Shown here piece by piece: positions 41,984 through 48,006 of a stretch of 58,455 bases of DNA. The position numbers and the translations under genes were made by a program. Within the stretch, counting starts at the first letter, position 1. The number at the start of each line of letters is the position of its first letter. Source of the DNA: Actinomycetes bacterium (GTDB taxonomy: Bacteria > Actinomycetota > Acidimicrobiia > Acidimicrobiales > RAAP-2); assembly GCA_021806045.1 (NCBI GenBank), contig JAJZDI010000020.1:1-58455 (forward strand), in the 5' to 3' direction. A model generated the notes under the pieces. The model was not told the origin of the DNA and searched no databases. It saw only the letters and a list, made by a program, of their open reading frames with translations.

Positions 41984-44900
41984 TCAGCGGAAGTCCCGTG
42001 AGGACGGCACGGGCCCCAGGTCGAGCCGGTCGATCCGCTCGGCCACCAGGCTGAGCGCCCCTTCGGACCGCTCCACCCGTCCCCGTACCAGGAGGGCGGA
42101 CGCGCCCCTGGCCACCGGCCACCACCGGATCCACGCCCCCCGGGAGCAGACGACGTTCACCATGCCCGTCTCGTCCTCCAGGTTCACGAAGACGGCGCCC
42201 CGGGCGCTCTCGGGCCGCTGGCGGTGGGTGACCACCCCGCCGACGGTCACCCTGCTCCCTGCCGGGGCGCCGTGGAGTGCCGCGGCGGGAACCACCCCCC
42301 GGCGTGCCAGCACGGGCCGTGCCAGGTGCATGGCCGTCACCCCCGGGGTCGCCCCGAGGGCCCACAGGTCGTCGGCCACGTCCTCCCACGGTCCCGGGGC
42401 CGGCAGGTCGGGTGCATCGGCGCCGGTGACGATGCCGGGTAGCCGGTCGGAGGTGGCCTGGGCGGCGGCGCCCGCTCCCCAGATGGCGGTGCGCCGGTCC
42501 CGGGTGGCGGCCGTACCCGATCCGGCGCGTGGGCCCCGGTCGGGCTCGTCCGCCAGTGCGCCAGCGGCAGCCAGTGCCTCGAGCTGGGGGCGGGTGAGCC
42601 CTGCACGGCGCACCAGGTCCTCCATGCCCGCCCACGGCCGGCCGGCGGCGATCCGCTCGGCTGCCGACCGGCCGATGCCCCGGACCGACGACAGCCCCAG
42701 CCGGATGGCCGGGACCCGGTCCTCCCGGCGGTCCTCCCGGCAGTCCTCCCGGCGGTCTCCCCGGCCGGTGGCGGTGATGCCTGACCACTCCAGGGTGGCG
42801 TCGGCGCCGCCCGCGTCCACGTGGGGCCGGTACACCGCCACCCCGTGCCGCTTGGCGTCGGCGATCAGGCTCTGGGGCGACCAGAACCCCATCGGCTGGG
42901 CGTTCAGCAGGCCGGCGGTGAAGGCGGCGGGGTAGTGGAGCTTGCACCAGGCGGTGGCGTAGACGAGGTGGGCGAAGGCCACCGAGTGGCTCTCGGGGAA
43001 GCCGAAGTTGGCGAAGGCGGCCAGGGCGTCGTAGACCTTGGCCGCCACCTCGTCGCTCACCCCCCGGGCCGCCATGCCGGCGAAGAGGCGGTCGCGCAGG
43101 CGGGCCATGCGCTCGCCCGAGCGCTTGGCGCTCATGGCCTGCCGGAGGGCGTCGGCCTCGGTGGGGGAGAAGCCGGCCACGTCGATGGCGATCTGCATGA
43201 GCTGCTCCTGGAAGAGCGGCACCCCGAGCGTCCGCTCGAGCGCCGGCTCCAGCAGCGGGTGCAGGTAGGTGACCGGCTCGGTCCCGTTGCGCCGGCGGAT
43301 GTAGGGGTGGACGGCGTTCCCCTGGATGGGGCCGGGGCGGATGAGGGCCACCTCGATGGCCAGGTCGTAGAAGCAGCGGGGCCGCACCCGGGGCAGCGTG
43401 CCCATCTGGGCCCGTGACTCCACCTGGAACACCCCCACGGTGTCGGCCCGGCACAGCAGGTCGTAGACGGCGTCCTCCTGGGGGATGCGGGCCAGGTCGA
43501 TCCGCTCGCCGTGGAACGAGGCGACCAGGTCGACCATGGCGTGGAGGGCGGTGAGCATCCCCAGGCCGAGGAGGTCGAACTTGACCAGGCCCACCGCCGC
43601 GCAGTCGTCCTTGTCCCACTGGAGCACGCTGCGCCCGGGCATGCGGCCCCACTCCACCGGGCACACCTCGACCACCGGCCGGTCGCAGATCACCATCCCC
43701 CCCGAGTGGATGCCGAGGTGGCGGGGGAAGCCGAGCGCCTCGGTGGCCAGCTCGGCCACCAGCGGTGGCAGGTCCTCGACCTCGCCGGGCCCGGACCCCC
43801 GGTCGGACGCCTTGGCCCAGGCGTCGACCTCCTCGGCCGTGTGGCCGAGGGCCTTGCCCACGTCGCGGACGGCCGAGCGGGTCCGGTAGGTGATGACGTT
43901 GGCCACCTGGGCGGCGTGCCGGCGGCCGTAGCGCTGGTAGACGTACTGGATGACCTCCTCCCGGCGGCCCGACTCGATGTCGACGTCGATGTCCGGGGGG
44001 CCGTCCCGGGCCGGGGAGAGGAACCGCTCGAACAGCAGCCCCAGGCCGACAGCGTCGACGTTGGTGATCCCGAGGGCGTAGCAGACGGCCGAGGTGGCGG
44101 CCGACCCCCGGCCCTGGCAGAGGATGTCGCTGCGCCGGCAGAACTGGACGATGTCCCAGACGGTGAGGAAGTACCCGGCGAACCCGAGGGCCGAGATCAC
44201 CCCGAGCTCATGGTCGATCCGTGCCCACGCCCCCGGCACCCGCTCCGCGTGACGGGGTCCGTAGCGCCCGGCGGCGCCCCGTGAGGTCAGTTCGGCGAGC
44301 CAGCTCTGCTCGGTGTGGCCGGCCGGCACCGGGAAGTCGGGCAGCCGGGGGGCGACCAGCCGCAGGTCGAAGGCGAACGCTCCGGCCAGCTCGACCGATC
44401 GGGCCACCGCCCCCGGCCACCGTGCGAACCTGCGGTGCTGCTCGGCCGGGGTGCGCAGGCAGGCGGTGGGCGCCGGGGGGAGCCATCCCTCGAGATCGGC
44501 CAGTGGCCGGCGGGCCCGCACCGCGGCCAGGGTGGTGGCCAGCCGGAAGCGCTCGGGGGTTGCGTAGTGGACGTTGTTGGTGGCCACCGGGTCGATGCCC
44601 CGCTCCACCGCCACCACGGCCAGGGCGTCGTTGCGTGCCGTGTCCACCGGGTCACCGTGGTCCCACAGCTCCACGCTCACCCGGTCCCGGCCGAAGGCCT
44701 CGACCAGCCGGTCGAGCGCCCGCCCGGCCGCCGACGGCCCGCCGCCCTCGAGGGCGGCGGCCACGGGTCCCTTGCGGCACCCGGTCAGCACGTGCCAGTG
44801 GCCGCCGTGCCGGCCGGCCAGGTCCTCGAGGGTGAAGCGGGGCGCACCCTTCTCGCCGCCGGCCAGGTGGGCCTCGGCGATGGCCGAGCTCAAGCGGGCG

Positions 44901-45220
44901 TAGCCGGCGGGGTCACGGGCGAGGACGACGAGGTGGGTGCCGGGCGGGTCGGGCATGCCCGTCCGGGCGCCTGCCGGTGCGCCTGCCGGGGCAAGGGTGA
45001 GCTCGGCACCGAACACGGTGGGCAGCTCGACCAGCCGGGCCGTCTCCGCGAAGCGCACCACCCCGTAGAGCCCGTCGTGGTCGGTGAGCGCCATGGCCGA
45101 CAGCCCCAGGCGCGCCGCCTCGCCTGCCAGCTCCTCGGGATGGGAGGCGCCGTCGAGGAAGGAGAAGTTCGAGTGGGCGTGCAGCTCGGCGTAGGCCGGC
45201 CGGCCGGACGTCTCAGCCAT
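41984..45220 (-). CDS. dnaE2: Error-prone DNA polymerase DnaE2 (ImuC)
   Basis: A 1078-residue C-family polymerase, length normal for DnaE2. The N-terminal PHP domain starts YAELHAHSNFSFLDGASHP and contains ALTDHDGLYG. The polymerase core has RGSAATSAVCYALGITNVDAV and the catalytic Asp pair in PPDIDVDIESGRREEV, then the fingers region GIHSGGMVICDRPV. KMSAKRS-like AMSAKRSGERM, tandem HhH (LSSVRGIGRSAAERIAAG) and an OB domain (GSRVTVGGVVTHRQRPESA) follow. Together with ImuB and ImuA' it forms the SOS mutasome that copies damaged DNA. Its ATG overlaps the imuB end by 8 bp. Confidence 0.95.
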   Translation of the reverse strand: MAETSGRPAYAELHAHSNFSFLDGASHPEELAGEAARLGLSAMALTDHDGLYGVVRFAETARLVELPTVFGAELTLAPAGAPAGARTGMPDPPGTHLVVLARDPAGYARLSSAIAEAHLAGGEKGAPRFTLEDLAGRHGGHWHVLTGCRKGPVAAALEGGGPSAAGRALDRLVEAFGRDRVSVELWDHGDPVDTARNDALAVVAVERGIDPVATNNVHYATPERFRLATTLAAVRARRPLADLEGWLPPAPTACLRTPAEQHRRFARWPGAVARSVELAGAFAFDLRLVAPRLPDFPVPAGHTEQSWLAELTSRGAAGRYGPRHAERVPGAWARIDHELGVISALGFAGYFLTVWDIVQFCRRSDILCQGRGSAATSAVCYALGITNVDAVGLGLLFERFLSPARDGPPDIDVDIESGRREEVIQYVYQRYGRRHAAQVANVITYRTRSAVRDVGKALGHTAEEVDAWAKASDRGSGPGEVEDLPPLVAELATEALGFPRHLGIHSGGMVICDRPVVEVCPVEWGRMPGRSVLQWDKDDCAAVGLVKFDLLGLGMLTALHAMVDLVASFHGERIDLARIPQEDAVYDLLCRADTVGVFQVESRAQMGTLPRVRPRCFYDLAIEVALIRPGPIQGNAVHPYIRRRNGTEPVTYLHPLLEPALERTLGVPLFQEQLMQIAIDVAGFSPTEADALRQAMSAKRSGERMARLRDRLFAGMAARGVSDEVAAKVYDALAAFANFGFPESHSVAFAHLVYATAWCKLHYPAAFTAGLLNAQPMGFWSPQSLIADAKRHGVAVYRPHVDAGGADATLEWSGITATGRGDRREDCREDRREDRVPAIRLGLSSVRGIGRSAAERIAAGRPWAGMEDLVRRAGLTRPQLEALAAAGALADEPDRGPRAGSGTAATRDRRTAIWGAGAAAQATSDRLPGIVTGADAPDLPAPGPWEDVADDLWALGATPGVTAMHLARPVLARRGVVPAAALHGAPAGSRVTVGGVVTHRQRPESARGAVFVNLEDETGMVNVVCSRGAWIRWWPVARGASALLVRGRVERSEGALSLVAERIDRLDLGPVPSSRDFR

Positions 45221-46343
45221 AGGTGGCCTCCACCTGCCAGCTGCCCCGCTCGACGACGAGCAGCCGCGCCGTCCCGGCCGTCACGACCTGGAGCCGGGCC
45301 GTCCGGCGATGCCCTCGCGTCCACCACCGCTCCTCGGTCGGCCACGGCCCGGCCCAGGCGGCGATCCGCTCCCAGGGGCCGCCGGCCACCGACAGGCGGG
45401 CCGGCTCTCCGGAGAGCACGCCCCGCCCCGACACGGCCACCGCTGTCCCGTCCAGCCCGACCAGTTCGGCTGCCGGGCGGTCCCGGTGGACGAGGAGGGG
45501 GGCGGGGGGTGGGATGGCACCCGGCCACGGTGGCTGGGATCCTGTCCCACCGGACCGTCCCGCCCGGCTCCGGGCGCTCCATGGGACGTCGCGGGCCCGC
45601 TCGGCCGGGCTGCGTCCCCCCTGGAGCCGAGCGGTCAGCACGCCGTCCGGCCCCAGTAGCCCCTGGACCCGAGTGAGCACCTGCGCGGCGCGGGCGTCCG
45701 CCTCGCTGGCGCCGCCCCAGAACCCCGGTTGGCGGTCGGGAGGCGGGGGCGGGTGGCGCAACGCGTGCAGGCGCCGCCCAGCTCCGGGATCGGCCAGGCC
45801 GGGCAGGTTGCCGCTGCGCCCGGTGGCCACTGCGTGGCAGGCGACCCCCGTAGCGCCGAACCGGCCGAGGACGTGGCGCTCGGGCAGGGCGGCGAACGCC
45901 CCGAGCGTGGTGATCCCCAGTCGGGCCAGCACGTCGGCCAGGTCTCGCTCACCCAGCACGGCCAGAGGAAAGGGGGCGAGGAACGCAGTGGTCCCACCGG
46001 GCTCGACGATCGTGCCGGTCCGGGCAGCCAGTACAGCGGCGAAGGTGCCCTCGGCGATGCCCACCTCGACAGCCTCGACGGAGCTGCCGCCCTCGACGGC
46101 CTCCGCGGCAGCTTCGACGGCCTCGACGGCGGCCGCGGTGACCAGGTCGACCACGGCATGCTCGCCACCGAAGTAGCGGGCCGGCCCCCTGATGGGCAGG
46201 GTGCAGATCCCGGTCCGCACCACGGTCACCCAGGGGCACGAGGCCTCGACGGCGGCCACCACCCGGTCGAACGCACGCAGGACGCCCCCGCTCTCGTCCT
46301 CCTCGATCAGGCCGGGACACCGAACGGCCAGCAGGCGTTCCAT
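45213..46343 (-). CDS. imuB: ImuB, Y-family polymerase-like mutasome hub, apparently N-terminally truncated
   Basis: A 376-residue Y-family homologue. Recognisable parts are the palm region GICTLPIRGPARYFGGE, ALPERHVLGRFGATG (HhH/thumb), the clamp-binding motif QPGFWG (205-210, compare QLPLWG in mycobacterial ImuB), VQGLLGPDGVLTARLQGGRSPAERARDVPW, and a C-terminal ImuA'/DnaE2-interaction tail. Usual ImuB proteins are about 500 residues and begin some 45-60 residues earlier, with a W-C-P-D-W-P-type strand. Here the ATG at 46343 falls inside the conserved GV--L---AARCP-type helix. The frame stays open just upstream (FRGVGASL, homologous) before running into the 9-bp repeats. The ATG overlaps the imuA' stop as TGATG. 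Confidence 0.85.
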   Translation of the reverse strand: MERLLAVRCPGLIEEDESGGVLRAFDRVVAAVEASCPWVTVVRTGICTLPIRGPARYFGGEHAVVDLVTAAAVEAVEAAAEAVEGGSSVEAVEVGIAEGTFAAVLAARTGTIVEPGGTTAFLAPFPLAVLGERDLADVLARLGITTLGAFAALPERHVLGRFGATGVACHAVATGRSGNLPGLADPGAGRRLHALRHPPPPPDRQPGFWGGASEADARAAQVLTRVQGLLGPDGVLTARLQGGRSPAERARDVPWSARSRAGRSGGTGSQPPWPGAIPPPAPLLVHRDRPAAELVGLDGTAVAVSGRGVLSGEPARLSVAGGPWERIAAWAGPWPTEERWWTRGHRRTARLQVVTAGTARLLVVERGSWQVEATYG

Positions 46344-47173
46344 CAGGCTGGCTCCGACGCCCCGGAAGTTCCGGCAACCCCGGCAACCCCGGCAACCCCG
46401 GCAACCCCGGCAACCCCGGCAACCCCGGCAACCCCGGGGCCGGCGTCCTCACCGGGAAGCCACAGCTCACACCGTCGCATCCGTCCCGCCGCCCGCCGTC
46501 CGCCCCCGGTGACGAGTAGGCGCCGCCGGCGTAGATGGCCGGCACCCCGCTCGATCCCCTCCCAGTGGGAGGACTCCACCGTCAGGCGGACGTCAGGGGG
46601 CTCTGGCCATCCGGCCCGGCCGGGGACGATCACCAGCACGCTCTGGCGCTCGCGGGCTCGCGCCACCAGCCGCCGCGCCGCTGCCGGCCGGGGGGCGAAG
46701 GGAGGGTGGACGACGACGACATCGACCCCGTCGACCAGCTCGGCCACGGCCTCGGCCCAGTGGGGACCGGGCCGGGGGACGATGGCCAGACGTTCGAGGT
46801 CGACCCCGATCCCGTCGACGGCCACTGCCCCCAGATCAGCTATGCCGACCACCGCGCACCATGACCCACCGGTCGAGGCAGTGGCCACCAGCGCCATGGC
46901 GACGGCCAGCGTGCCTTCGAGGCCCGGGGCCGCGGTGACGGTGATCGCCGACCCCCGCCGCAGCCCCGGTTCGGGGAGGAGCGGGGCGAGGGCGGGATGG
47001 ACGGGGAGGAGGCGGGTGCCACTGGCCGCTGTCGGACGGATCCTCCTGGCCAGGTCGTCCAGGGCCGCCAGCGCACTCGGGTCGCGCCGGCCCCCCGGGG
47101 TGGTGGACGCTGGTGCTGCCGTCCGGCCCGGCACCCGGCCCGGCACCCGGCCGGGTGCGACGGAATCGAACAT
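46343..47173 (-). CDS. imuA: ImuA' (SOS mutasome accessory protein)
   Basis: A 276-residue RecA-fold-like accessory factor of the ImuB/DnaE2 mutasome, identified from its position and family-like segments. These are LLPVHPALAPLLPEPGLRRGSAITV, TASTGGSWCAVVGIADLGAVAVDGIGVDLERLAIVPRPG, and a C-terminal RCELWLPG typical of actinobacterial members. No intact Walker A is seen, as expected for ImuA'. After ELWLPG the frame continues through seven VAG tripeptides encoded by a 9-bp repeat and stops overlapping imuB. The ATG lies inside a LexA box and 8 nt from TATGAT. Confidence 0.85.
   Translation of the reverse strand: MFDSVAPGRVPGRVPGRTAAPASTTPGGRRDPSALAALDDLARRIRPTAASGTRLLPVHPALAPLLPEPGLRRGSAITVTAAPGLEGTLAVAMALVATASTGGSWCAVVGIADLGAVAVDGIGVDLERLAIVPRPGPHWAEAVAELVDGVDVVVVHPPFAPRPAAARRLVARARERQSVLVIVPGRAGWPEPPDVRLTVESSHWEGIERGAGHLRRRRLLVTGGGRRAAGRMRRCELWLPGEDAGPGVAGVAGVAGVAGVAGVAGVAGTSGASEPA
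46371..46433 (+). repeat. Seven 9-bp tandem repeats at the imuA'-imuB junction
   Basis: CCGGCAACC is repeated seven times without mismatch. On the minus strand it encodes (VAG)7 at the end of imuA' and RGC triplets in the imuB frame. Confidence 0.97.
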
Positions 47174-47180
47174 ATGTTCG
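47167..47180. promoter_or_regulatory. LexA (SOS) box overlapping the imuA' start
   Basis: CGAACATATGTTCG is a perfect 14-bp palindrome and matches the actinobacterial LexA consensus CGAAC-N4-GTTCG. It contains the imuA' start codon and lies just downstream of the -10 box, so LexA binding would block the start site of imuA'-imuB-dnaE2 until DNA damage. Confidence 0.9.
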
Positions 47181-47214: not shown

Positions 47215-47262
47215 CCTGGCCCCGGGGTGGCAGCCGCCCCTGGCCCCGGGGTGGCAGCCGCC
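47215..47262 (+). repeat. 24-bp tandem duplication in the imuA'-methyltransferase intergenic region
   Basis: Two copies of CCTGGCCCCGGGGTGGCAGC followed by CGCC start at 47215 and 47239. Confidence 0.9.
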
Positions 47263-47286
47263 CGAGCATCCCCGTCCCGCCCTTTC

Positions 47287-47298: not shown

Positions 47299-48006
47299 AT
47301 GGACGGGATGGAGTCGTCGCCCGGTCGCCTGTCGCCCGGCCAACTGCCAACCGGACCCGATCACTGGGTCCGCTGGCACCAGCAGTACGACGAGGCAGGT
47401 TCTTCGCTCCGGCGGCGCCTCGAGATCGTGTCCCACCGCCTCCGCCAGGCACTCGACGCCGCGCCTCCCGGCCCCCTGAAGCTCGTCAGCATGTGTGCGG
47501 GCGAGGGACGTGACGTCCTCGGTGTCCTGCCCGACCACCCCCGCCGTGACGACGTTGCCGCCCGTCTGGTCGAGCTCGACCCCCACCTGGCTGCGGCAGC
47601 CAGGGAGCAGGCCGACGCCGCCGGCCTCAGCTCGGTCGAGGTCGCCGAGGGAGATGCATCGTCCACCTCCGCCTACGCCGGCATGGTGCCCGCAGACATC
47701 GTCCTCGTGTGCGGCGTCTTCGGCAACGTTCCCGATGAGGACGTGTGCGCCACCGTGTCCGAGCTGCCTCATCTGTGCGCTCCTGGCGCCACCGTCATCT
47801 GGACCCGTCACCGCATGGCGCCTGACCTGACGCCGACGATCCGCGGTTGGTTCGCCGACGCCGGCTTCGAGGAGATCGCCTTCGACGCCGAGCAGCCGTA
47901 CCTGTTCGGTGTGGGGACGGCTCACTTCATGGGCACACCGGCCCCGTTCCGTCCCGGTCGCACGATGTTCACGTTCCGGGGCGACGGCGCGGCCGCCACT
48001 CGCTGA
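47299..48006 (+). CDS. Class I SAM-dependent methyltransferase family protein
   Basis: A 235-residue protein with a Rossmann-type methyltransferase fold. Motif I is LVSMCAGEGRDVLGVL (SAM-binding), the acidic end of strand 2 is VELDPHLAAAA, VAEGDAS follows, and motif IV-like is ADIVLVCGVFGNVPDED. The C-terminal LFGVGTAHFMG and PFRPGRTMFTFRG strands are intact. The N-terminal HWVRWHQQYDEAGSSLRRRL helix probably recognises the acceptor, which is unknown. The first ATG is at leaderless spacing. Confidence 0.85.
   Translation: MDGMESSPGRLSPGQLPTGPDHWVRWHQQYDEAGSSLRRRLEIVSHRLRQALDAAPPGPLKLVSMCAGEGRDVLGVLPDHPRRDDVAARLVELDPHLAAAAREQADAAGLSSVEVAEGDASSTSAYAGMVPADIVLVCGVFGNVPDEDVCATVSELPHLCAPGATVIWTRHRMAPDLTPTIRGWFADAGFEEIAFDAEQPYLFGVGTAHFMGTPAPFRPGRTMFTFRGDGAAATR

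Follow-up and report, generated by a model that had tools for sequence, protein, structure and literature searches.

A compact ImuB without fingers and little-finger domains in mutasome operons of an acidimicrobial clade

The imuB gene in the window, by which we mean the whole 58,455-nucleotide stretch of DNA analyzed here, is very probably an inherited compact ImuB that is normal in its clade, cut down to an adaptor that binds the clamp and serves DnaE2 and ImuA'. The compact architecture is conserved among relatives, has one origin and lies in an intact operon. In the window, imuA', imuB and dnaE2 are encoded on the minus strand, each overlapping the next, and the ATG of imuB at 46343 shares one base with the stop codon of imuA' (Table 1). 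The dnaE2 product is matched over its whole length by an NCBIfam model as an error-prone DNA polymerase, and no Pfam or NCBIfam model matched the imuB product at a threshold of 0.001. An earlier note, made from the sequence alone, had described an operon that is complete except for a shortened ImuB. That much stands, as do its reading of the end of imuA' (RCELWLPG and later seven VAG triplets, after which we read SEPA) and its statement that the clamp motif QPGFWG and the SOS box are intact, both being present. Its further view that imuB had suffered an N-terminal loss does not stand, because the missing fingers domain is internal. The little-finger domain is also gone.

Table 1. Coordinates of the mutasome operon, the parts of compact imuB and associated sequence elements in the window.
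Feature	Coordinates	Strand	Remarks
imuA'	46343..47173	-	276 aa, RecA-like mutasome partner; NCBIfam NF058630, E 1.5e-45, residues 65-225
imuB, compact form	45213..46343	-	376 aa; without fingers and without little-finger domain
dnaE2	41984..45220	-	1078 aa; overlaps imuB stop; NCBIfam PRK05672, residues 8-1078; Asp triad PDIDVD kept
First palm strand (imuB residues 3-8)	46320..46337	-	Retained; homologous to RTLVVWCPDW of long ImuBs
Junction (residues 12-19), site of fingers domain in long ImuBs	46287..46310	-	Global profile alignment; fingers HMM absent
Remaining palm and thumb (residues 20-175)	45819..46286	-	Model superposed on DinB 4ir1_A
Compact-type linker (residues 177-196) at little-finger place	45756..45815	-	Helix 186-196 in model
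Beta-clamp motif QPGFWG (residues 205-210)	45714..45731	-	Compact alignment
RecA-NT-like motif (residues 212-241)	45621..45710	-	V226, L230 and V235 spaced as M. smegmatis V374/L378/V383 in passages of PMC11791113
ImuB-C region (residues ~280-376) and stop	45213..45506	-	Aligned with long ImuBs; mostly strands in model
SOS (LexA) box GAACATATGTTC	47168..47179	+	Spans imuA' start codon
9-bp tandem array in imuA' tail	46371..46437	.	TRF score 134, 7.4 copies, 100% matches; read as (VAG)x7

When compact proteins (33 sequences) are compared with the profile of long ImuBs, two gaps appear. The first follows residue 13, spans about 50 columns and corresponds to the fingers according to Y-family domain borders that we took as given. 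The second is a net difference of about 95 residues between the thumb and the clamp motif, with RFG-to-clamp distances of mostly about 44 versus 138; such raw distances are wrong where an earlier RF[GTS] matched, and we used HMM results instead. The earlier note had regarded the domains downstream of the start as intact, but the little-finger domain between the thumb and the clamp motif is missing too. The strands and helices at residues 238-337 of a long control have no counterpart in the compact model.

We searched 160 loci in six frames with HMMs for the two domains, with filters off. Neither the fingers nor the little finger was found in any frame of the 84 compact loci, which represent 73 distinct ImuBs, as some records duplicate the same contigs. 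Among loci with known domains, the fingers HMM detects fingers in 64 of 64 and the little-finger HMM a little finger in 72 of 72; these controls are loci found in frame by the same HMMs, and some were in the HMM seed. A less sensitive run found fingers in only 38 loci. The six-frame search rules out a frameshift that hides the domains. Among loci reaching both regions, we saw none in which the little finger is absent and the fingers are kept; at one other locus (L061) the fingers are present and the contig ends before the little finger, and this locus was left out of the tree. Pfam's IMS model matches 17 of 17 long ImuBs and none of 36 compact ones; this standard domain model misses compact imuB genes.

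The compact form is common in the window's family. An ImuB match was found in 60 of the 61 related genomes that we first searched, and forms in this sample were assigned by reading the junction and by the domain HMMs. The 37 genomes of the family comprise 31 with the short form, 4 with the long form (G008, G014, G018, G027), 1 with a contig fragment (G022) and 1 without a match (G025), while 2 of 24 genomes from other families of the order have the short form (G044, G056; contig ends truncate some of the 24). At E<=1e-65, the compact type occurs in at least 144 of 172 family genomes, and in at least 89 of 101 that are of good quality, covering at least 18 of 21 genera; this cut-off sorts by score and is not a domain test, and it misses one genome that is compact by the domain test (G021, locus L031). 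With the same cut-off, a sample of the class contains 19 compact genomes among 296, of which 18 belong to the family and one to family f45, and a sample of the phylum contains 9 among 396, all of the family. In a sample of the order (298 genomes), the matches listed include compact forms, by domain HMMs, in four other families: six genomes of f45, three of f21, two of f43 and one of f9. Families f45 and f21 also have one long ImuB each (L150 and L153).

The compact form is present in 35 named records as well (L063-L094 and L096-L098). Nearly all of these are metagenome bins, with titles that mostly name Acidimicrobiaceae, Acidimicrobiales or Actinomycetes MAGs. Two exceptions are titled Candidatus Saccharibacteria (L080) and Acidobacteria (L084). 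Their compact operons are nested among acidimicrobial ones, L080 adjoining L083, and they are probably mislabelled or mixed bins. One genome bin, G024, has two different compact imuA'-imuB-dnaE2 operons (L004 on contig C14 and L050 on C12) on different tree branches, reflecting either transfer or a mixed bin.

Compact operons have a single origin on both of the trees that we made, which are quick and unrooted. One tree was based on ImuA' and the first 480 residues of DnaE2, and therefore did not use ImuB at all; it has 105 of the 160 loci, the others being duplicates or lacking DnaE2 or ImuA' coverage, and its 72 compact operons lie on one side of one branch (SH-aLRT 99). The other was based on the shared columns of ImuB in 140 of the 160 loci, with 9 fragments and 11 duplicates left out, and here too one branch with SH-aLRT 99 separates all 73 compact ImuBs. 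On the best ImuB tree, the little finger requires one change and the fingers five. Four long ImuBs are also without fingers and have kept the little finger (L042, L056, L057, L119); their losses are separate on the best tree, although the well supported branches force only two events. It is most likely that an ordinary actinobacterial ImuB became compact by loss of domains rather than that the long form gained them; as the trees are unrooted, we infer this direction from the presence of both domains in other Y-family proteins. Some members of families f1 and f45 (L038, L042, L043, L051, L150) have kept the little finger and form a separate branch of the ImuA' and DnaE2 tree, which may reflect the exchange of entire operons between lineages, or their sorting among them.

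It is useful to compare the compact form with known systems. Long actinobacterial ImuBs (ImuB2, as in M. tuberculosis and M. smegmatis) share with it the imuA'-imuB-dnaE2 operon and SOS box, as well as the clamp motif, RecA-NT, ImuB-C, palm and thumb. However, they have both fingers and little finger and are mostly 505-550 aa long (up to 655), whereas compact proteins have neither domain and are 349-439 aa. The Y-family polymerases DinB and Dpo4 likewise have the palm and thumb fold in common with compact ImuB, which differs from them in lacking fingers and little finger. Operon and motifs thus mark the compact form as an ImuB, but it has ceased to be a Y-family protein of four domains. In split systems, as passages of PMC12926913 and PMC6511836 present them, an inactive Y-family part (iPolY) and a standalone ImuB-C likewise serve DnaE2; there the genes are separate and RecA is thought to replace ImuA, while here one fused, shortened ImuB occurs with ImuA'.

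The closest precedent is in PMC12926913, a 2026 survey of DNA polymerases. Passages of this survey, whose set is over 3000 complete genomes, describe many ImuBs with deletions, some of them drastic; recall that the named compact records are nearly all metagenome bins. The "drastically reduced" ImuBs resemble the compact form in that structural elements are deleted and the thumb and ImuB-C are kept. However, according to these passages, ImuB-C, little finger and thumb are present in every ImuB, including those with the greatest reduction. The compact clade contradicts this statement, at least as worded in those passages, as the little finger is always retained there and is found in 0 of 84 loci here; compact ImuB thus has one domain fewer than the published minimum. 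Among titles and the openings of abstracts on ImuB with DnaE2, mutasome, little finger, Acidimicrobi or truncation, we found none that describes such a form. The losses seem to amount to a natural deletion experiment on the question of which polymerase domains of ImuB the mutasome needs: the best tree has five losses of the fingers and one of the little finger, and the clamp motif, RecA-NT and ImuB-C were kept. Compact ImuB is also a smaller target for structural work.

We propose a mechanism in which compact ImuB most likely works as an adaptor, with partner contacts carried over from work on other ImuBs. Most likely, two internal in-frame losses shaped the compact form: one removed the fingers, some 50 residues that follow the first palm strand, and the other removed the little-finger domain completely, some 95 residues ahead of the clamp motif, where a short linker took its place. 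What remains is the palm-thumb core, the beta-clamp motif, the ImuA'-binding RecA-NT motif and ImuB-C. Compact ImuB, when bound to the clamp, would hold ImuA' through RecA-NT and DnaE2 through the thumb and ImuB-C. Synthesis would be carried out by DnaE2, and the DNA contacts of the fingers and little finger would be dispensable. A clamp-bound adaptor without the DNA-handling parts is suggested because the partner sites survive and the lost domains are not among them. As to these sites, the consulted passages describe ImuB as catalytically dead (PMC6511836), the clamp motif as essential for mutasome function with ImuB as its hub (PMC10421592), RecA-NT as binding ImuA' (PMC11791113), and the thumb and ImuB-C as binding DnaE2 in models (PMC12926913).

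An extension of this proposal is possible, although we are doubtful of it: ImuB here might have given up its DNA-binding parts of polymerase type and become the protein-only adaptor of a minimal mutasome, with the linker helix (residues 179-196) acting as a novel docking site for DnaE2, the clamp or DNA. This helix lies at the former little-finger place and carries conserved leucines and arginines. The clade's consensus is GELxGxRD....RRLxxxR, from which the window departs at residues 179 (N) and 184 (A), and in an alignment of 36 compact sequences L180 is conserved in 35, R191 in 32 and L192 in 30. Between the window and its sister, linker residues 177-196 have a pN of 0.048 (2 changes in 20 codons), which is not clearly below the surroundings.

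It might seem that the clade has lost the true N-terminus together with the first palm strand, and that imuB now starts in what was an internal helix (RREAQSRCPEL in long ImuBs). The earlier note had proposed such a start. In agreement with that note, about 50 residues are missing at the start relative to long ImuBs, and the intervening DNA is too short to encode them. Moreover, a local alignment of compact and long profiles begins at the CPG motif of the internal helix without a gap, the RCPG of the window's start resembles RCPEL, and the long-ImuB profile, when applied to the window's genome, begins in the internal helix at 46364, extending in helix register 7 codons upstream of the ATG. However, the similarity that the note saw upstream of the ATG (FRGVGASL) is peculiar to the window: no other of the 84 compact loci shows the "GV..L" look, and in 24 of the 84 a stop occurs within 8 codons upstream of the start. 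A global profile alignment keeps the first strand. We also scored starts with PSSMs for the two segments, taken from 18 long ImuBs. The first palm strand gave the higher score for each of the 33 compact starts (mean 10.8 versus -1.8 bits), and the window's start scores 11.9 bits as first palm strand versus 6.5 as internal helix; the 33 rows were chosen by eye before the HMM test and include near-copies, and L060, where the pattern was not matched, was left out. Further, the four long ImuBs without fingers retain the first strand, which by eye reads RVLVAL, RTLAVC, RTLVVRCP and RILAVWCPGWP.

Structure prediction agrees with these scores. An AlphaFold2 model based on 36 compact sequences (mean pLDDT 83, pTM 0.56) has a strand at residues 3-8, followed directly by the palm helix at 20-35. 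Residues 1-10 have a mean pLDDT of 96, and values fall below 50 at the clamp motif (204-210) and at 257-279. The model superposes on DinB from residue 1: residues 1-190 align with 1-239 of 4ir1_A (VIA; Z 14.8, rmsd 3.0, 169 aligned), and residues 2-225 of a long control (L116) align with 2-233 of DinB 4r8u_A (Z 18.9, rmsd 2.6, 219 aligned). The VIA rows span residues 1-197 of the compact model, so ImuB-C is hardly covered by this fold comparison. Foldseek alone gave a TM of 0.36 to 4irc_A (E 2.4e-05). On the scores and the predicted model, then, imuB begins with the first palm strand and lacks the fingers domain, and we consider a loss of the true N-terminus to be quite unlikely.

Another explanation, which we consider very unlikely, is that another protein, such as DinB, ImuA' or DnaE2, provides the missing domains in trans. 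The window's genome does have one other Y-family locus, a DinB on contig C39 with a little finger of its own. However, a profile search of this genome found no place other than DinB that matches fingers or little finger, and hence no free little finger. It is this search that counts, given that Pfam IMS_C, also used on the genome, matched none of 17 long ImuBs. No second imuB was found in the genome. On these results we rejected a second copy and free domain genes elsewhere in it. A larger DnaE2 or ImuA' as compensation was also rejected: compact operons have a median DnaE2 length of 1051 (28 loci), which does not exceed the 1058 of long operons (22 loci), and their median ImuA' is shorter, at 247.5 (84 loci) versus 268 (58 loci).

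It is also conceivable, but highly improbable, that compact imuB is decaying and has little function left. Two domains are indeed gone, and Pfam no longer recognizes the gene. However, there is no stop inside any family match, among the matches listed, and dN/dS between the window and its sister (L063) is 0.31 for imuB, similar to the neighboring genes imuA' (0.33) and dnaE2 (0.23; 900 codons). The residues thought to contact partners are kept: in 36 compact proteins, the clamp motif has Q in 33 and both F208 and G210 in all 36, and the three RecA-NT positions, spaced correctly in the window, have V in 22 (L in 11), L in 33 and V in 32. The compact profile aligns with long ImuBs through the last residue of ImuB-C. 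The order imuA'-imuB-dnaE2 on one strand holds in 84 of 84 compact loci, and the Asp triad of the DnaE2 active site is kept in all 79 that are readable there. The earlier note's suggestion that the mutasome may work with a non-catalytic ImuB is thus consistent with the absence of listed stops, the dN/dS, the partner motifs, the SOS box and the gene order, and compact ImuB is probably a working adaptor of this kind.

Of the 70 usable compact loci, 61 have a strict SOS box close to the imuA' start and 9 do not; 21 of 30 long loci have one there. The background frequency is 17 of 2075. The box at 47168-47179 is the sole match in our window; since 0.36 matches are expected there by chance, its weight lies in its position. 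The same sequence, GAACATATGTTC, is the box most often seen near imuA', in 48 of the 70 usable compact loci. Because the imuA' start codon lies inside the box, bound LexA would cover this start, and it is possible that the imuA' mRNA is leaderless or has a very short leader.

Finally, the earlier note placed the loss at the 9-bp tandem array, as an accident in this one genome, and considered a collapsed repeat. The array does lie directly upstream of imuB, where about 50 residues are missing, but a truncation at or by the array, or an assembly error, is scarcely credible, as the relatives already refute it: the same short, complete start is found clade-wide, in 83 other compact loci from many different assemblies, none of which carries the array. 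The note itself had named such relatives as a refuting result. Neither the repeat nor the assembly made the short start, because most of the family shares that start and the array is absent from those 83 loci. The array is in codon phase, confined to the imuA' tail and outside imuB. As only the window's locus among the 84 has it, it is an addition, neutral in phase, to the tail of a single imuA' and has no bearing on the shape of imuB.

Other repeats were seen in the window. A second, degenerate 9-bp repeat (VEAVEAAAEAVEGGSSVEAVEV) lies within imuB at 46064-46130; there the window's protein exceeds its sister by 12 residues, and this part of the model has lower confidence. A perfect 24-bp tandem duplication occupies 47215-47263, in the gap that separates imuA' from a divergent open frame on the plus strand (47299-48006). 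At the edge of the window, positions 3-399 contain a 126-bp tandem repeat of 3.2 copies with 97% matches.
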